Of a stretch of DNA of 64,000 nt, positions 11,671-18,747 are shown one piece after another. The notes beneath the pieces were generated by a model that did no database searches, was not told where the DNA came from, and worked only from the letters and a program-made list of their open reading frames with translations. Each line of letters begins with the position of its first letter. Position 1 is the first letter of the stretch. The position numbers were made by a program, and so were the translations under genes. Source of the DNA: Candidatus Gemmiger stercorigallinarum. Its GTDB lineage: Bacteria > Bacillota > Clostridia > Oscillospirales > Ruminococcaceae. Where the stretch lies: the NCBI GenBank assembly GCA_019119495.1, contig DWWX01000021.1:1-64000 (forward strand), read 5' to 3'.

Positions 11671-12756
11671 ATGGCAAACAGGGTGTTCCAGAACGTGGTA
11701 TACCAGATGAAGGACGCGGTGGACCGGGTCGTCGGCGTGGCGGACGAGACCGGGGCGGTCATCGCCTGCTCGGAACTGGGCCAGATCGGCGAGGTGCGCG
11801 AGGGCTTTGCCGCCCAGCGGCTGACCTCCGGCGACGCCTTTGTGCGCGACGGCTACGCCTACCACCAGTTCTCCGGTTCCAAGCACAACGACTACGCTGT
11901 CTTTGTGGAAGGCTCCGACCAGGTGGCAGAGCAGTTTGCCTCCATGCTGGCCATCAGCCTGCAAAGCATCAAGCAGTACCACGACGAAAAGTTTGACAAG
12001 ACCAACTTTATCAAAAATGTCGTGCTGGACAATATCCTGCCCGGCGATATCTACGCCAAGGCGCGGGAGCTGCATTTTGTCTCGGACGTGCAGCGGGTGG
12101 TGCTGCTGATCCGTGTTACCAGCTCCAACGATATCTCGGCCTACGACGTGGTCAGCAGCCTGTTCCCGGACAAGCAGAAGGACTTTGTCTTTAACATCAG
12201 CGAGACCGACACCGTGCTGGTCAAGGAGATCAAGCCGGACAACAGCACCCGCGATATGGAAAAGCTGGCCGCCTCCATTGTGGACACCCTTTCGGGCGAG
12301 CACTACATCAAGGCGGTGGTGGGCATCGGCACCCCCATCAACAACATCAAGGACCTGGCCGCCAGCTTCAAGGAAGCGCAGATCGCCATGGAAGTGGGCA
12401 AGGTGTTCGACACCGAGCGCCAGGTCATCTCCTACGACCACCTGGGCATCGCCCGGCTGATCTACCAGCTGCCCACCACCCTGTGCGAGGCCTTCCTGCG
12501 CGAGGTGTTCAAGCAGGACAGCATCGACTCGCTGGACTCCGAGACGCTGTTCACCATCCAGCGGTTCTTCGAGAACAACCTGAACGTGTCCGAGACCAGC
12601 CGCGGCCTGTTTGTCCACCGCAACACGCTGGTCTACCGGCTGGAGAAAATCAAAAAGCTCACCGGCCTGGATCTGCGCAAGTTCGACGACGCCATCGTCT
12701 TTAAGGTGGCGCTGATGGTCAAAAAGTACCTGTCCGCCAACCCGGCCAAGTACTGA
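11671..12756 (+). CDS. CdaR/PucR-type transcriptional regulator
   Basis: A 361-residue regulator. The first 130 residues resemble the diacid-recognition domain of CdaR (VDRVVGVADETGAVIACS matches the start of that domain), the middle matches the GGDEF-like segment of this family, and the C-terminal 60 residues form the PucR-type HTH with VSETSRGLFVHRNTLVYRL. CdaR of E. coli senses glycerate or glucarate; no such genes are near, so the ligand is unknown. It is a single gene between two terminators with its own promoter and operator-like repeat, consistent with autoregulation. Start ATG preceded by AAGGGGAG. Confidence 0.8.
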   Translation: MANRVFQNVVYQMKDAVDRVVGVADETGAVIACSELGQIGEVREGFAAQRLTSGDAFVRDGYAYHQFSGSKHNDYAVFVEGSDQVAEQFASMLAISLQSIKQYHDEKFDKTNFIKNVVLDNILPGDIYAKARELHFVSDVQRVVLLIRVTSSNDISAYDVVSSLFPDKQKDFVFNISETDTVLVKEIKPDNSTRDMEKLAASIVDTLSGEHYIKAVVGIGTPINNIKDLAASFKEAQIAMEVGKVFDTERQVISYDHLGIARLIYQLPTTLCEAFLREVFKQDSIDSLDSETLFTIQRFFENNLNVSETSRGLFVHRNTLVYRLEKIKKLTGLDLRKFDDAIVFKVALMVKKYLSANPAKY

Positions 12757-12795
12757 CCGCCGCGCCCGCGGCGGGCGGCAAAAAATACGCTCCGA

Positions 12796-12837
12796 CGGCG
12801 CCTTTCGGTGCAATGCACCGGCGGGCGCCGCCTTTTT
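12796..12837 (+). terminator. Terminator after the CdaR-like gene
   Basis: Outer 7-bp GC stem (12796-12802 with 12824-12830) enclosing a second small stem, followed by five T residues. Confidence 0.7.
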
Positions 12838-13170
12838 GCGCCCCGGCGGGGCAGGGGCGTGCCGTGCCGGCTCAAAAAATTTACAAACTTTCCACATTCC
12901 CGGCGGGAGAGGCGGCGCACAAAAATTTACGCGTACATATGGTAAAAATTGGCGCTTTTGCCGCGGAGGGCCATCTTGACGCAGGGTTGCCGGGCATGGT
13001 AAGCTAGAATATGTATAGCGGCGGGCGGCGTCCCCCTGTAACATTTCTGCACAAAACCCGTTGCTGAAATATAGATCGGGGCGCTTTGCGGGCAGGGCCC
13101 GCGGCTGCCGGCGGAAAGCGCCGGGCGGCGCGCACCGGGGAATGTCGACGGGTGTAACAGGAGTTCAAAC
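12838..13170 (+). other. Upstream region of ftsE
   Basis: It holds no gene I can support. A TAGAAT at 13005-13010 could be a -10 but has no -35 at proper distance; TTGACG lies 23 bases upstream. The 5' region is AT-rich with short A-runs, while 13020-13140 is GC-rich. The promoter of ftsEX is probably here but cannot be fixed by eye. Confidence 0.35.
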
Positions 13171-13911
13171 ATGATCGACTTTGTACATGTAACAAAGGTA
13201 TATGAAACGCAGAACGACGAGAACGTCGCGCTGGAGGACATCAACCTCCACATCGACGACGGCGAGTTCGTTTTTGTGCTGGGCCATTCCGGCGCCGGCA
13301 AATCCACCTTCCTCAAGCTGATCCTGCTGGAGGAAAAATGCACCGAGGGTTCGGTCGTCATCAACGGCCAGGACATCGGCAAGCTCAAGCGCCGCAAGGT
13401 GCCCTATATGCGCCGCCAGATGGGCGTGGTGTTCCAGGACTTCCGCCTGATCCCCACCATGACCGCCTACGAGAACGTGGCCTTTGCCATGCGCGTTACC
13501 AACATCTCTACCCGCAACATCAAAAAGCGGGTGCCCTACGTGCTGGGCCTGGTGGGCCTGGGCGACAAGATGGACCGCCTGCCGGACGAGCTTTCCGGCG
13601 GCGAGCAGCAGCGCGTGGCGCTGGCCCGCGCGCTGGCCCACAGCCCCAAGCTGATCATCGCCGACGAGCCCACCGGCAACATCGACCCGGAGATGAGCTT
13701 TGAGATGATGGAGCTGCTGTCCGCCATCAACAGCGTGGGCATCACCGTTGTCGTCGTCACCCATGAGCACGAGCTGGTCCACCGCTTCAACAAGCGGGTG
13801 GTCACCCTGTCCCACGGGCACATCGCGTCGGACACCGCCCACCCCGAAGTGGCCGAGCAGTTCATCGCCGCCGGCGGCGTGCTGCCCCGCGACGTGGACT
13901 ACGCGCACTGA
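13171..13911 (+). CDS. ftsE: Cell division ATP-binding protein FtsE
   Basis: A 246-residue cytoplasmic ABC ATPase that works with FtsX to activate peptidoglycan hydrolases at division or elongation sites. Walker A GHSGAGKST, Q-loop in VFQDFRLIPTM (diagnostic for FtsE), signature LSGGEQQRVALARAL, Walker B LIIADEPTGNID. The start ATG follows AGGAG. About 20 residues longer than the common FtsE length at the C-terminus. It is followed at 22 bases by ftsX and then an EnvC-like hydrolase, so the module is complete. Confidence 0.97.
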   Translation: MIDFVHVTKVYETQNDENVALEDINLHIDDGEFVFVLGHSGAGKSTFLKLILLEEKCTEGSVVINGQDIGKLKRRKVPYMRRQMGVVFQDFRLIPTMTAYENVAFAMRVTNISTRNIKKRVPYVLGLVGLGDKMDRLPDELSGGEQQRVALARALAHSPKLIIADEPTGNIDPEMSFEMMELLSAINSVGITVVVVTHEHELVHRFNKRVVTLSHGHIASDTAHPEVAEQFIAAGGVLPRDVDYAH

Positions 13912-13933
13912 GCAAGGGAGGGACAGGACTGTT

Positions 13934-14839
13934 ATGCGTTTTTCCAGTTTTACTTATCTTGTCCGCCAGGGCCTGCACAATATGCGGGCCAACCGGCTGA
14001 TGACCTTTGCCTCCATGGGCGTTTTGACCGTCTGCATGATCCTGATCGGCGTGGCCTACCTGCTGGGCGCCAATGTGGACGCTATTGTGGAGTACATCGG
14101 CGAGCAGAACGAGACCATCGTCTACCTGCAGGACGGCCTGACGGACGAGCAGATCGCCAACGCCGACGCGGCCATCCGCGCCACGCCGGGCGTTATCTCG
14201 GTCACTTACGTCTCGCCGGAGGACGTGCTGGCCAATTACAGCTCGATGCTGGACGAATATGCCAACATGTACGAGGCCTTTGCCAACGACAACCCCTTCT
14301 CGGCCAACTACCGCGTGGTCATTGACGATATCTCCCGCCTGCAGGAGGTCTCGAGCCAGCTCAGCCAGATCGAGGGCGTGGACGAGGTCAGCGCCCCGCT
14401 GGAGCTGTCCCGCACCTTCACCTCCATCCAGCGGGTCATCAATTACGCCAGCTACGGTCTGGTGGCGGTGCTGGCCATCGTCAGCATCGTGGTCATCAAC
14501 AATACCATCCGCATCACGGTGTTTGCCCGCCGCAAGGAGATCGCCATCATGAAGCTGGTGGGCGCCACCAACGGCTTTATCCGCTTCCCCTTCTTTGTGG
14601 AGGGCACCACCTCCGGCCTGATCTCGGCGGCCATCTCGTCGGGTATCGTCTGCGGCGCCTACTATGCGCTGTGCCGCTGGTATACCGAAAATCCCTCCAC
14701 CTTCTCGCAGATGTTCGGCGGCCAGCTGGTGCCGCTGTCGTCGGTGTGGTACTATATCGTCATCGGTTTTGTGCTGCTGGGCTTTGTGCTGTGCGGCATC
14801 GGCACCGCCACCAGCATCCGCAAACACCTGAACGTCTGA
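13934..14839 (+). CDS. ftsX: Cell division protein FtsX
   Basis: A 301-residue permease-like partner of FtsE. N-terminal membrane segment at about 22-45, an outer domain of about 130 residues with the FtsX_ECD pattern (NETIVYLQDGLTDEQI and the VISVTYVSPEDVL beta strands), then three C-terminal segments from about 175 on, including NNTIRITVFARRKEIAIMKLVGA, read here as the cytoplasmic coupling helix region. It transmits ATP hydrolysis to an extracellular hydrolase; the next gene is the obvious partner. The start chosen is the ATG at 13934; the frame upstream of it overlaps ftsE and lacks FtsX character. Confidence 0.96.
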   Translation: MRFSSFTYLVRQGLHNMRANRLMTFASMGVLTVCMILIGVAYLLGANVDAIVEYIGEQNETIVYLQDGLTDEQIANADAAIRATPGVISVTYVSPEDVLANYSSMLDEYANMYEAFANDNPFSANYRVVIDDISRLQEVSSQLSQIEGVDEVSAPLELSRTFTSIQRVINYASYGLVAVLAIVSIVVINNTIRITVFARRKEIAIMKLVGATNGFIRFPFFVEGTTSGLISAAISSGIVCGAYYALCRWYTENPSTFSQMFGGQLVPLSSVWYYIVIGFVLLGFVLCGIGTATSIRKHLNV

Positions 14840-14920
14840 CCGCAGGGGGCGCAAAAGGCCCCGGGAAGTCAAAACCGGCCGGCCGCCCCGCGGGGCGCCG
14901 GGCAGAGGAGGGAAACAGCC

Positions 14921-16144
14921 GTGCATTGTAAAGCAGACAAAGCCCAAAAAGGGATCGCGCTTTTGCTCAGCCTGGTCATGGCGGCGGTGCTGGCCGTATC
15001 GGCGGCCATGCCGGCGCAGGCCGACGATGTGGACGAACTGCGCCAGCAGAAGGAGCAGCTCCAGCAGCAGCTGGACGCCATCAACCAGCAGATCGAGGAC
15101 AACCAGGCCGGCCTGGCCGACGCCGAGGAACAGCGCGACCTGCTGCAGCAGCAGCGCCAGGTCATCCAGCAGCAGATCTCGGTCATCCAGAGCCAGCTCA
15201 GCGATGTGAACAACCAGATCACCGCCAAGCAGGCCGAAGTGGACGCCAAGCAGGTGGAGATCAACGAAAAGCAGGCCGACATCGACCAGCGTTGGAGCGA
15301 TTTCAAGCTGCGCATGAAGGCGATGCAACGCCTGAACGACGGCGGCTCCATCGCGCTGCTCAGCTCGGCCACCAACCTGTATGAGCTGCTCAGCTTCCAG
15401 CAGACGCTGGAGGATATCTACTCCAAGGACGACCAGGTCCTGGCGGAGCTGGACGCCCAGTATGACGAGCTGAACACCCAGAAGCAGGAGCTGGAGACCC
15501 AGATGGCCGACCTGGAGGCCAACCTGGCCACCCTGCAGGACCTGGGCAGCCAGCTGGACAGCAAGCAGAACGAGCTGCAGACTAACCTGACGCAGACCGA
15601 GGCCCAGATCTCGGAGGCCGAGGCCCTGGCCGAGAACCTGACTGCCGAGCAGCAGGAGATCGAGCGGCAGTTCAACGAGGCGGCCGACGCCCTGGACGCC
15701 GCCCTGCGGGAATCGCTGCAGCAGTATGATAACGCCGCGCAGATCCACTGCTCGCTGAACTTTATCAACCCGCTGAACAGCTACAAGTACATTTCCTGCT
15801 ACTTTGGCGACGGCGGCCACGGCGGCACCGACTTTGCGGCCCCCGGCGGCACCGAGATCCACGCCATGGCCGACGGCATCGTCACCAACGCCACCTACCA
15901 TTACAGCTACGGCTATTACGTCATGATCACCCACGGCACCGCCGACGACGGCAACACCTACGCCACGCTGTACGCCCACATGAACTCGGCCCCGCTGGTC
16001 AGCGCCGGCCAGGCCGTCACCCAGGGGCAGACCATCGGCTACGTGGGCACCACCGGCTATTCCACCGGCAACCACCTGCATCTGGAAATGCGCATCAACG
16101 GCGTGCGCACCAGCGTGCTGCCTTATATCTCGTACCATGCCTAA
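14921..16144 (+). CDS. EnvC/PcsB-like murein hydrolase: coiled coil plus active M23 domain
   Basis: A 407-residue secreted protein. A signal peptide covers about 1-38 (hydrophobic LLLSLVMAAVLAVSAAM, cleavage near AQA-D). A long Gln/Glu-rich coiled coil covers about 40-265, the part that binds FtsX in EnvC, PcsB and CwlO. The M23/LytM domain covers about 280-405 and keeps all four metal and catalytic ligands: His300 and Asp304 (GHGGTD), His353 (LYAHM), and His385/His387 (NHLHLE). It is therefore probably an endopeptidase itself rather than only an activator. GTG start, with GAGGAGGGAA upstream. It sits directly after ftsEX. Confidence 0.93.
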   Translation: MHCKADKAQKGIALLLSLVMAAVLAVSAAMPAQADDVDELRQQKEQLQQQLDAINQQIEDNQAGLADAEEQRDLLQQQRQVIQQQISVIQSQLSDVNNQITAKQAEVDAKQVEINEKQADIDQRWSDFKLRMKAMQRLNDGGSIALLSSATNLYELLSFQQTLEDIYSKDDQVLAELDAQYDELNTQKQELETQMADLEANLATLQDLGSQLDSKQNELQTNLTQTEAQISEAEALAENLTAEQQEIERQFNEAADALDAALRESLQQYDNAAQIHCSLNFINPLNSYKYISCYFGDGGHGGTDFAAPGGTEIHAMADGIVTNATYHYSYGYYVMITHGTADDGNTYATLYAHMNSAPLVSAGQAVTQGQTIGYVGTTGYSTGNHLHLEMRINGVRTSVLPYISYHA

Positions 16145-16181
16145 GGCCGCACCCCGGCCCGGACAATAAGGGGGACTACCC

Positions 16182-16283
16182 ATGAAGCATAAACTTTCTG
16201 TGCGCATTGCCTGCCTGTGCATCGCCGCGCTGCTGTGCGTGACGCTGTTCGGCTCTGCCATCGCCTCGGCGGCGATGCTGTAA
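16182..16283 (+). CDS. Small hydrophobic peptide, 33 residues
   Basis: An ATG nine bases after a GGGGGAC ribosome site opens a 33-codon frame ending in TAA. The peptide has a basic start (MKHKLSVRIA), a hydrophobic core (CLCIAALLCVTLFGSAIA) and an AxA-like end, so it looks like a signal peptide or a single-pass small membrane protein. It lies between the hydrolase gene and the S41-family gene, each gap under 50 bases, so it would be co-transcribed. It may be a real small division or envelope peptide, or a remnant of a longer secreted protein. Unknown function. Confidence 0.5.
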   Translation: MKHKLSVRIACLCIAALLCVTLFGSAIASAAML

Positions 16284-16329
16284 CGCCTGCCGGCAAGGCC
16301 GGCGCAGAAAAAGGAGAGAACGACCCCAC

Positions 16330-17538
16330 ATGAGCAAAAAGATCAGCCTGGGCGTGGCGCTTACCATCATGTTCATCGCCATGGCGGTGACCTTTTCGGT
16401 CACCATGGCTTTCTCGCAGAACATGTTCAACAACAGCGTCACCAGCGTCAAAAGCCGCGAGCGCATGTACAACAAGCTGTCCGAGATCGACCGCTATGTC
16501 CGCGCCAACGAATATTTTGACATCAACGAGGATACCCTCAACGACACCATCGCTTCCGGCTATATGCTGGGCATCAGCGACCGCTACGCCCGCTACTACT
16601 CGGCCCAAAGCTATAACGAGCTGGTAAGCACCCAGTCCGGCCGGCTGATGGGCATCGGCGTCTCGGTGGTCAAGGACAGCTCCTCCGGCTACGCCCGCAT
16701 CCTGCGTGTGTACGAGAACTCGCCCGCGGCCGAGGTCGGCCTGGAGGCGGGCGGCTTTATCACCTCCATCGGGGACACCAGCCTGCGCAGCCTGAGCGAT
16801 ACCGCCGCCATCCAGTCCGCCCTGCTGGGCGAGGAGGGCAGCGTGGTCACCATCGGATACCTGACCCCCGCCCGCGAGGAGCAGACCCACGACATCACCC
16901 GCGCCAACTACACCGTTGCCACCGTGTTCGGCCAGCTGATCGGCGACAGCTGCGGCTATGTGGAGATCGACGATTTCTCTGCCAACACCGGCACCGAGTT
17001 CCGCAATGTCATCGACGATCTGCGCAGCCAGGGGGCGGTCAGCTTTATCTTTGACCTGCGGGACAACGCCGGCACCAACCTGAACGCCGCGCTGATCGCC
17101 GCCGACTACTGCGTGCCCTCCGGCCTGATCGCCCAAAGCCAGGCCAAGGACGGCACCACCGAGGACCTGCGCGTCTCGGACGACACCGAGATCACCCAGC
17201 CCATGGTCTGCATCGTCAACGGCAGCACCGCCGGCGGGGCCGAGCTGTTTGCCAACGCGCTGCGCAAGATGGGCGGCGCCACGCTGCTGGGCAGCACCAC
17301 CGCCGGCCAGGGCGTTGTCCTGAGCGACCCGCAGAGCCTTTCGGACGGCAGCGCCATCGTCATCACGGTGGGCCTGCTGCTGGACAACGAGGGCCAGTCC
17401 TGGAACGGCACCGGCCTGACGCCGGACGTGGACGCGGCCCTGACCTCCGACGAGCAGAACAGCTACTACGACTTTACCGTTGACACCGACCCGCAGATCC
17501 AGCGCGCCCTCAGCGCGGTGCAGACCCAGGCGGGCTGA
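16330..17538 (+). CDS. S41-family (CtpA-like) PDZ protein lacking catalytic residues
   Basis: A 402-residue membrane-anchored protein: N-terminal segment at about 6-30, a helical cap, a PDZ domain (about 95-185, GIGVSVV to GYLTP), and an S41 core to the end (closing GTGLTPDVDAAL). In active C-terminal processing peptidases the nucleophile lies in TASAAEL-type motifs and the base in TFGKGxVQ, 25 residues later. Here the segments read STAGGAELFA and TTAGQGVVL: Gly302 replaces Ser, Gln327 replaces Lys (spacing exactly 25) and Leu331 replaces the supporting Gln. The fold appears intact but the protein should be inactive as a protease. It belongs to the ftsEX-hydrolase operon, which suggests a binding or scaffold role. 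Confidence 0.88.
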   Translation: MSKKISLGVALTIMFIAMAVTFSVTMAFSQNMFNNSVTSVKSRERMYNKLSEIDRYVRANEYFDINEDTLNDTIASGYMLGISDRYARYYSAQSYNELVSTQSGRLMGIGVSVVKDSSSGYARILRVYENSPAAEVGLEAGGFITSIGDTSLRSLSDTAAIQSALLGEEGSVVTIGYLTPAREEQTHDITRANYTVATVFGQLIGDSCGYVEIDDFSANTGTEFRNVIDDLRSQGAVSFIFDLRDNAGTNLNAALIAADYCVPSGLIAQSQAKDGTTEDLRVSDDTEITQPMVCIVNGSTAGGAELFANALRKMGGATLLGSTTAGQGVVLSDPQSLSDGSAIVITVGLLLDNEGQSWNGTGLTPDVDAALTSDEQNSYYDFTVDTDPQIQRALSAVQTQAG

Positions 17539-17865
17539 CAGCATCCGATCCCCGGAAAGCCGGCGCACGGCAAAGCGGGGCAAGCACAGGGAAGCATTGG
17601 TTTTGCCGTGCAGGCGGCAAAACTGCAAAGCAGCAAAATCGCAGCAACAGGCCGGTGGCAAGGCGCCGGAACGCTGGCGCCCTTTGCGGACGCCAAGCGG
17701 ACGGAAACGCAGCCAGCGGCCTGTTTTGGTCGGATTTTGCGGCAAAGATCCCTTGGGCGTGCTCTGCGGATGGGGCAGGGCAGGCGCCGCCGGCCCGCCC
17801 CGCGTTCCGCGCGCCGCTTTTTGCGCCCCGACCCATCCACACAGACCCGCAGGAGGGAATGCCGC
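17539..17865 (+). other. Gap between the S41-family gene and ksgA
   Basis: No gene is supported here. A hairpin with a perfect 9-bp stem and 6-base loop (17600-17623) stands without a T-run on either strand. No clear sigma-A promoter for ksgA was found; frames through this region merely extend ksgA and lack ribosome sites. Confidence 0.4.
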
Positions 17866-18747
17866 ATGCCCGCGTTGACCGACCTTTCCACCATCCGCAG
17901 CCTCTGCGACCGGTACGGCTTTTCGCTGTCCAAGGGGTTCGGACAGAACTTTATCATCAACCCCGGCGTCTGCCCCCGCATTGCCGAGTCGGCCGGCATC
18001 GGCCCCGACTGGGGCGTGCTGGAGATCGGCCCCGGCATCGGCGTGCTGACCGAGCAGCTGGCAAAGCGGGCGGCCAAGGTGGTCTCGGTGGAGATCGACC
18101 GCCGGCTGTTCCCGCTGCTGGACGAGACGCTGGCCGGGTACGGCAACGTCAAGATCGTGGAGGGCGACGTGCTGAAGGTGGACCTGCGCGCGCTGATCCG
18201 GCAGGAGTTTGCCGGCCGGCCGGTGGCGGTCTGCGCCAACCTGCCTTACTACATCACCAGCCCCATCCTGATGCGCCTGCTGGAGGAGCGCCTGCCGGTG
18301 GAAAACATCACCGTCATGGTCCAGCGCGAGGCCGCCCAGCGGCTGTGCGCCCCGCCCGGCACCCGGCAGGCCGGGGCCATCAGCTATGCGGTGGCCTACT
18401 ACGCCAGCCCCCGGCAGCTGTTTACCGTGCAGCCGGGCAGCTTTTACCCCGCCCCCAAGGTCACCAGCGCGGTCATCCGCCTGGATGTGCGCAAGACCCC
18501 CGCGGGGGATCTGGACCCGGCGGCGGAGCGGGCGCTGTTTGCCGTGATCCGGGCGGCGTTCTCGCAGCGGCGCAAGACCGCAGCCAACGGCATCTCGGCG
18601 GGGCTTGCCGCCGACAAGGCCGCCGTTCTGGCCGCCATGGCCGACGCCGGCCTGGACGCCCGCCTGCGCCCCGAACAGCTGACGCTGGAGCAGTTTACCG
18701 CCCTGCAGGCTGCGCTGGCGGCGCGGGGCATCCCGGCCAGGAAATGA
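17866..18747 (+). CDS. rsmA: 16S rRNA (adenine1518-N6/adenine1519-N6)-dimethyltransferase
   Basis: KsgA, 293 residues, dimethylates two adjacent adenines in the 3' terminal helix of 16S rRNA late in 30S assembly; loss gives kasugamycin resistance. SAM-binding motif LEIGPGIGVLTEQL, acidic VEID, and catalytic NLPYY are present, and the N-terminal KGFGQNFIIN is typical. The ATG at 17866 lies eight bases after AGGAGGG; the much longer upstream frame has no ribosome site. It ends about 50 bases before the promoter of the ACP cassette. Confidence 0.97.
   Translation: MPALTDLSTIRSLCDRYGFSLSKGFGQNFIINPGVCPRIAESAGIGPDWGVLEIGPGIGVLTEQLAKRAAKVVSVEIDRRLFPLLDETLAGYGNVKIVEGDVLKVDLRALIRQEFAGRPVAVCANLPYYITSPILMRLLEERLPVENITVMVQREAAQRLCAPPGTRQAGAISYAVAYYASPRQLFTVQPGSFYPAPKVTSAVIRLDVRKTPAGDLDPAAERALFAVIRAAFSQRRKTAANGISAGLAADKAAVLAAMADAGLDARLRPEQLTLEQFTALQAALAARGIPARK

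Follow-up and report, generated by a model that had tools for sequence, protein, structure and literature searches.

The window analysed here, a stretch of 64,000 nucleotides from Candidatus Gemmiger stercorigallinarum (source genome 2.06 Mb in 44 contigs), encodes FtsE, FtsX, an M23 hydrolase, a 33-aa open reading frame (ORF) and an S41 homologue, in this order on the + strand. FtsE and FtsX are thus encoded together with a coiled-coil wall hydrolase, forming an FtsEX-hydrolase module (TIGR02673, NF038347, PF01551). A first-pass annotation, made from the letters of the window, had placed the S41 homologue inside an ftsEX-M23 operon beside an active-type M23 enzyme; the placement was borne out by the curated scores of FtsE and FtsX, by the PF01551 match and by the survey of flanking genes described below, and the zinc-ligand motifs of the M23 hydrolase (HxxxD and HxH) are intact by motif and alignment checks, in keeping with an active type. 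The features are:

13171..13911, + strand: FtsE, ABC ATPase, 246 aa (TIGR02673, 281.5 bits against a cut-off of 264.85)
13934..14839, + strand: FtsX, permease-like partner (NF038347, 237.6 bits against a cut-off of 225; FtsX_ECD and FtsX domains)
14921..16144, + strand: M23 (LytM) hydrolase with a long N-terminal coiled-coil-like region (PF01551, 98.1 bits against a cut-off of 28.7)
16182..16283, + strand: 33-aa ORF between M23 and S41, with a single hydrophobic stretch and a basic N-terminus; a purine-rich stretch precedes it
16330..17538, + strand: predicted pseudoprotease of the S41/CTP family, 402 aa, with membrane anchor, PDZ domain and S41 core (ORF, Pfam, phmmer, fold match)
16348..16425, + strand: likely N-terminal membrane anchor, residues ~7-32 (hydrophobic sequence; low-confidence helix in the model)
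16645..16869, + strand: PDZ domain, residues ~106-180, GIG loop kept (PF17820 and PF00595 over cut-offs)
17047..17076, + strand: residues 240-249, FDLRDNAGT against NxGG in most live relatives, with the second Gly lost (alignment column 249)
17233..17235, + strand: codon 302, Gly at the nucleophile position (TAGGAEL motif)
17308..17310, + strand: codon 327, Gln at the general-base (Lys) position (TAGQG motif)
17320..17322, + strand: codon 331, Leu at the third (Gln) position (alignment to CtpA/CtpB)

The start of FtsX is the ATG at 13934, read from the sequence; the profile search ran from 13940. Across positions 12700-18000 a consensus scan found no sigma-70-type promoter, and seven terminator-like sites were found where 3.8 were expected, with one on the + strand (16099-16120), inside the end of the M23 gene. 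From these scans a single transcript that reads through the operon is therefore predicted as likely.

A CTP homologue without the catalytic residues

The S41 catalytic-domain fold of the window protein is identified by Peptidase_S41 (PF03572, 115.1 bits against a cut-off of 24, residues 208-368). As in CTPs, where a PDZ domain stands before or within the protease core, a PDZ domain precedes it, matched above cut-off by PDZ_6 (PF17820, 32.7 bits against 27) and PF00595, with PF13180 just below its own cut-off. Pseudomonas aeruginosa CtpA is the best sequence match (phmmer 2.5e-32), and also the best fold match (Foldseek E 7.8e-28, TM-score 0.64, other CTPs coming next) of an AlphaFold2 model that was built from 19 sequences and has a mean pLDDT of 70.6 and a pTM of 0.61, with residues 31-106 and 330-345 below 50. 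The protein is likely membrane-anchored, as predicted from a hydrophobic N-terminal helix seen in the sequence and, at low confidence, in the model.

CtpA, an S41A protease (structures 8sxe/8sxg, and 7rqh for S302A), shares with the window protein the PDZ domain, the S41 core and even the numbering of the catalytic positions, Ser302/Lys327/Gln331, but has a live dyad where the window protein has Gly302 and Gln327. Bacillus subtilis CtpB, an active enzyme of the sporulation checkpoint in what we take to be the gene order ftsE-ftsX-ctpB, has the same architecture and was likewise aligned by phmmer. Its catalytic residues are given as Ser309/Lys334/Gln338 in the available text of PMC11021448. Both alignments are free of gaps between the three columns and set Gly302, Gln327 and Leu331 of the window protein on the catalytic residues, so that the earlier assignment of these replacements, like the earlier proposal of a membrane tether, agrees with alignments, codons and model.

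The Ser-Lys catalytic dyad, named in the same partial source as the defining feature of CTPs (PMC11021448), is therefore missing from the window protein. In the passages on CtpA, S302A and K327A each abolish proteolysis in vivo, and the effect of Q331A depends on the substrate, being minor for one and more obvious for another (PMC11021448). Since either of the first two substitutions is enough in CtpA, loss of the serine alone suffices to predict inactivity, and the window protein should be catalytically dead. It scores 155.1 bits with the prc profile (NCBIfam TIGR00225), below the cut-off of 218.6; with the dyad missing as well, it is therefore not to be filed as a CTP peptidase, though it is a CTP homologue. 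The annotation 'S41 peptidase' in common gut bacteria can mislead about activity.

A further change affects position 249, the second glycine of NxGG, which presumably has an oxyanion role: Gly stands there in 99% of the aligned rows that keep the nucleophile serine (hereafter Ser rows) and in none of 30 Gemmiger rows. The position of CtpB Arg168 (Leu166 in the window protein) was also considered as a marker, and is uninformative because it varies in Ser rows too.

Purifying selection in the genus Gemmiger

The S41 gene was found in 32 of the 35 Gemmiger genomes searched, at 62-100% identity and with an open frame in all 32; the three genomes without it are 68-83% complete. Thirty rows were read together and a 31st (L268, genome G015, Gly at 302) was added, the 32nd genome (G018) being left out of the read set. 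The nucleophile serine is absent from all 31 genomes read, which include those of two isolates, G. gallinarum DSM 109015 (L060) and G. formicilis An812 (L063), and its loss is therefore neither a sequencing error nor an artefact of metagenome assembly. Among the 30 rows, position 302 is Gly in 27, Ala in two and Gln in one; position 327 is Lys in 24, Gln in four (the window protein included), Met in one and Arg in one; and position 331 is Leu or Met throughout. All three positions are replaced in six of the 30, with Ser302 and Gln331 gone from every one, and on the simplest reading of these residues Ser and Gln would have been lost at the base of Gemmiger and Lys later and patchily. Three of the 30 rows have TAGSAEL, with a serine at 303.

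The gene is nonetheless constrained. By the Nei-Gojobori method, dN/dS of the S41 gene is 0.038-0.250 in 10 Gemmiger pairs, and lower than that of the M23 gene in eight of the nine pairs with both computed; pairs of Ser genes give 0.037-0.236 in 10 of 11, the eleventh being saturated. Divided by the protein distance of FtsX, that of S41 has a median of 0.89 across 171 Gemmiger pairs, 1.00 across 36 pairs of Ser genes and 1.22 across 13 pairs of other lost genes. Relative to FtsX, the Gemmiger gene is not evolving faster than Ser genes, whereas the higher ratio of the lost pairs outside Gemmiger (1.22 against 1.00) indicates that some lost genes may be relaxing.

Within Gemmiger, residues 293-312, which hold the dead nucleophile segment, rank by conservation among the top 0.5% of all windows of 20 residues. 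In a ranking whose segment limits were set by the analyst, the Lys/Gln loop (319-346) stands at 0.141 (14%), the PDZ domain at 56% and the remainder of the core (181-290) at 0.904 (90%); the loop is thus only moderately conserved and the remainder of the core is among the less conserved parts. Of the positions fixed to 93% or more in the 199 Ser rows, Asp84, Tyr89, Gly110, Phe216, Asp242, Arg244, Pro291, Glu305, Gly321, Gly326, Gly362, Asp387, Gln389 and Ala393 stay 90-100% fixed in the dead rows (30 from Gemmiger and 49 other non-Ser rows; the row sets include a few duplicates of the same gene). Gly110 is kept in 30 of 30 Gemmiger rows, none of which retains the usual residue at 249, 302 or 331; the other non-Ser rows show erosion, at 47-84%, of positions 246, 248, 249, 327, 328 and 331 as well. 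The Gemmiger S41 gene is under purifying selection despite its lost catalysis, as a regulatory pseudoenzyme would be. That selection rather than decay preserves the PDZ domain and core had been argued from the window, and the open frames, the dN/dS values and the conserved dead-site segment all support it.

Recurrent loss across the Oscillospirales

Close syntenic homologues with an intact serine and lysine (SAS/K) were named in the first-pass annotation as evidence that would speak against its reading. Within the genus this objection fails, as none of the 31 genomes read has the serine; in the wider family most homologues outside Gemmiger keep it (96 of 126), from which it follows that the loss is derived and recurrent. 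A sample of 248 genomes of the family yielded 217 with an S41 match. From these, 156 rows in 74 genera were aligned, 30 from Gemmiger and 126 others (125 genomes and one named record), chosen by hand from the upper part of the match list and then at about one per genus, a sampling that favours better matches to the window protein. In the 126 non-Gemmiger rows position 302 is Ser in 96, Gly in 11, Cys in five, Ala in five, Tyr in four, Arg in two, and Asn, Asp and Gln in one each; the serine is missing from 30 of them, and 21 of the 74 genera hold a loss. Across the Oscillospirales rows the replacements comprise Gly, Ala, Asp, Asn, Gln, Arg, Tyr, Leu and Cys. In genera g67 and g9, and in g110 of family f4, Ser-Lys-Gln and non-Ser orthologues occur within the same genus.

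Surveys of the order and the class covered 117 and 118 genomes, of which 64 and 42 were read. Outside the family, losses were found in f22 (6 of 6 rows), in the first tandem copies of f9, in f4 (1 of 3) and in f14 (1 of 5), and none in the 42 rows from other orders. No loss was seen either in a control set from the order, made up of 18 longer S41 genes (frames of 488-709 aa, with no FtsX or M23 within the ~1 kb read), Ser and Lys being present in 18 of 18.

A tree of 253 rows (142 from the family, 69 from the order and 42 from other orders, with identical and short rows removed and the genes of G046 and G195 entered twice) was built without the catalytic columns; 183 of its 247 branches have support of at least 80. 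It requires at least 20 changes of the Ser state, and at least 19 after branches with support below 80 are collapsed. If loss is irreversible there are 24 lost clades, a number that falls to 21 when Cys is taken as live. Any attraction between fast rows would lower the count of losses by merging them, not raise it. A tree of FtsE and FtsX from 119 family loci gives 13 changes, again 13 after collapsing, and 16 lost clades. As far as these residues and trees can tell, the serine appears to have been lost about 20 separate times across the sampled Oscillospirales rows.

Several rows depart from a simple division into live and dead. L089 (g65) and L130 (g41), which were counted as Ser rows, keep Ser302 and have Arg or Val in place of Lys327; without this lysine they are probably inactive, and their genera are therefore not listed as having both live and dead forms. 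Cysteine stands at the nucleophile position in L092, L136, L152, L171, L174, L291, L297 and L299, with Lys and Gln kept in all except L092, which has His for Lys; judged by these residues, such variants are possibly Cys-type enzymes rather than dead ones. In L385 and L391 (f57) and in L346, L361 and L379 (f20, f7), Ser and Lys are kept and Gln331 is Gly or Ile, which is consistent with the glutamine being less essential. An in-frame stop interrupts the S41 homologue in L291 (G144, Cys at 302) and L367 (G376, Ser), through possible decay or sequence error.

Genomic context of the losses

Of the loci with full flanks, 43 of 46 lost ones and 70 of 82 Ser ones are preceded by FtsE, FtsX and M23; two lost loci, L123 and L176, have no FtsEX within 5 kb upstream. 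The four ligand columns of M23 read H, D, H, H in 83 of 83 Ser loci and 54 of 54 lost loci aligned. By a looser motif count one of 56 lost loci failed, where a contig end cuts the gene. Within the same operon, then, the M23 enzyme has retained its metal ligands where the protease has often lost its nucleophile, and no co-decay of the M23 partner was seen, the ligands being intact in all 137 aligned loci.

Outside Gemmiger, loss was seen at 26 of 100 FtsEX-linked family loci and at 2 of 31 unlinked loci (Fisher p = 0.023, phylogeny ignored), most of the unlinked loci being a different S41 type with ~1 kb of flank read. The 31 comprise nine family loci without FtsEX in reach, four extra family copies (all Ser-Lys-Gln) and the 18 longer genes; L134, half in reach, was left out. 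Among the eight f9 genomes with a match, all seven tandem loci read (L352, L362, L370, L373, L382, L421 and L422) start with a dead copy, which has Gly or Asp at 302, and have a Ser-Lys-Gln copy behind it. In six of the seven the dead copy adjoins M23 behind ftsE-ftsX-M23; the upstream side of L362 is cut off.

Genomes with a single PF03572 match at an E-value of 0.001 number 25 of 32 in Gemmiger, 25 of 30 among the other lost ones and 20 of 30 in the Ser set, so that compensation by another S41 protein was rejected for most lost genomes. The second S41 gene of the source genome (L002, contig C38) is very divergent, with 43.9 bits to PF03572 and no NCBIfam match; it has an ASAS motif and, by eye, no counterpart of the lysine. 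Among the genomes searched, the sporulation protease SpoIVB (S55) occurs in 28 of the 30 lost ones, in all 30 of the Ser set and in all eight from Gemmiger; because it is equally common in lost and Ser sets, nucleophile loss does not follow loss of sporulation, which was rejected as a driver. The C-terminal tails of the M23 proteins, inspected by eye as a marker of PDZ binding, vary and give no clear signal.

A probable non-cutting partner of the FtsEX complex

CTPs are proteases that trim or destroy proteins, wall hydrolases included, and their PDZ domains and grooves take C-terminal tails. We consider it probable that the window protein is a membrane-anchored pseudoprotease that binds a C-terminal tail without cutting it, and holds or gates the M23 hydrolase or FtsX in the FtsEX wall-cutting complex. 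In such a protein the CTP fold, the PDZ domain and the peptide groove would be kept and the nucleophile absent; lacking a nucleophile, it should form no acyl-enzyme. It would capture the C-terminal tail, or an exposed strand, of a partner that stays uncut, and in this way would keep M23 or FtsX in place, or gated, within the complex that FtsEX controls. Binding of a tail or strand is to be expected because the Gly110 loop of the PDZ domain, segments 300-312 and 338-346, and Asp387/Gln389 are kept. As operon neighbours, M23 and FtsX are the best candidates for the partner, with the small membrane ORF third. Gene order alone does not prove contact between the S41 protein and M23 or FtsX; together with the retained PDZ and groove residues and with the control of hydrolases by CTPs and dead LytM proteins, it suggests that the S41 protein may bind or regulate one of them. 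We infer also which of the three the partner would be, the binding of its tail and the direction of regulation.

A wider reading has perhaps an even chance of being right. Under it, the ftsEX-linked CTP of the Oscillospirales would have a conserved non-proteolytic role in the control of FtsEX and M23, likely as a tail-binding scaffold; proteolysis would be dispensable and would have been dropped about 20 times, in one family after a tandem duplication that left a dead and a live copy. Given such a non-proteolytic role, catalysis could be dropped again and again.

Some elements of these readings have counterparts elsewhere. NlpI, to which the window protein had been likened, is the adaptor of an active CTP and so a weaker analogy than dead LytM proteins, also proposed at the outset, of which DipM is an example. 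IRBP (retinol-binding protein 3), an S41-fold relative among the phmmer matches to PDB, is a non-proteolytic retinoid binder of animals; the kind is therefore known. In P. aeruginosa the M23 site of EnvC is itself dead, and CtpA has a lipoprotein activator, LbcA. There the operon envC-ctpA-PA5135 encodes a LytM protein with CtpA, and that partner, EnvC, is an amidase activator whereas CtpA is active (PMC12569750, in the parts available). The window operon, with M23 ligands kept and the CTP dead, is the mirror image of this arrangement. DipM is described, in the accessible portion of PMC10336132, as a catalytically inactive hydrolase-fold protein that regulates wall cutting through a conserved groove; dead LytM regulators of its type have the M23 fold, not that of S41, and are related to the window protein in logic only. 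SweC/SweD and SteA/SteB are membrane proteins that FtsEX needs to control its hydrolase, SweC (16 kDa) and SweD (13 kDa) having cytoplasmic domains (PMC6705773, in excerpt); the window protein is likened to them as an FtsEX cofactor, with no homology claimed. Among the matches listed in our literature searches, mostly titles and openings of abstracts, there was no description of an S41 pseudoprotease linked to FtsEX or of its recurrent inactivation.

The strongest alternative, though an unlikely one, is a pseudoprotease that binds a partner outside FtsEX-M23, such as an ancestral CTP substrate (a division inhibitor, a lipoprotein or a sporulation factor), co-transcription being merely inherited order. 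FtsEX linkage says little about the dead form, because loci that keep the serine also show it (70 of the 82 with full flanks). According to the available text of PMC12569750, P. aeruginosa CtpA degrades endopeptidases encoded outside its own operon, and the presence of SpoIVB in 66 of 68 genomes makes a sporulation partner possible. Against an outside partner, FtsEX-linked loci have lost the serine more often than unlinked ones (26 of 100 and 2 of 31, with phylogeny ignored), 43 of the 46 lost loci preserve the gene order, and the f9 dead copy lies next to M23 in the six of seven tandem loci whose upstream side is visible.

We think it improbable that the dead protein acts as a decoy or heteromer subunit that pairs with a live CTP and tunes it. 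The f9 dead copies lie directly before a Ser-Lys-Gln copy in all seven loci read, and CTP assemblies are among the best fold matches; but in most of the genomes concerned (25 of 32 from Gemmiger, 25 of 30 of the other lost ones) the gene's own PF03572 match is the only one, and the second S41 protein of the source genome is very divergent. Some second copies may have been missed because genomes are incomplete.

Neutral decay of a dispensable protease gene is less probable again. It would agree with the diversity of substitutions at the site (G, A, C, D, L, N, Q, R, Y), with the change of Lys and Gln in some lineages and with the stops in the S41 genes of G144 (Cys at 302) and G376 (Ser). For Gemmiger it is largely refuted by the low dN/dS, the conserved dead-site segment and the open frames of 32 matches at 62-100% identity, and the retained operon also argues against it.

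The least probable reading of all, barely to be entertained, is that the protein is still an enzyme in which Thr300, Ser303 (in some species) or a cysteine takes over: Thr300 is invariant in one alignment (A1), Cys stands at 302 in five of 126 non-Gemmiger rows and Ser303 in three of 30 Gemmiger rows, but Thr or Ser at 300 is also usual where Ser302 is kept, Ser303 is absent from the other 27 Gemmiger rows, and the window protein has lost Lys327, Gln331 and Gly249 too.

A pseudoprotease that binds within the FtsEX complex thus remains our preferred reading. Repeated loss at one position of a division operon, with fold and hydrolase kept, is natural evidence for a useful role of a CTP that does not cut, and this role can be tested by means of live and dead orthologues in g67, g9 and g110 and of the f9 tandem pairs.

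A small membrane-type ORF

The gap between M23 and S41 holds counterparts of the 33-aa ORF (~26-44 aa, with an R(I/V)xCLxIA-like motif) in 15 of the 16 Gemmiger loci examined, and similar ORFs lie in the same gap in L177, L178 and L180. The 33-aa peptide of the window drew no match from Pfam or NCBIfam at E-values up to 1, and three of the small gap ORFs have none below E 0.15; this membrane-type ORF is possibly an uncharacterised microprotein of the FtsEX operon. Elsewhere in the operon, the gap between FtsX and M23 is ~1.2 kb longer in L059, L060 and L061 than in other Gemmiger loci, leaving room for an extra gene, and some f11, f12 and f18 loci have two M23 genes between FtsX and the S41 region.
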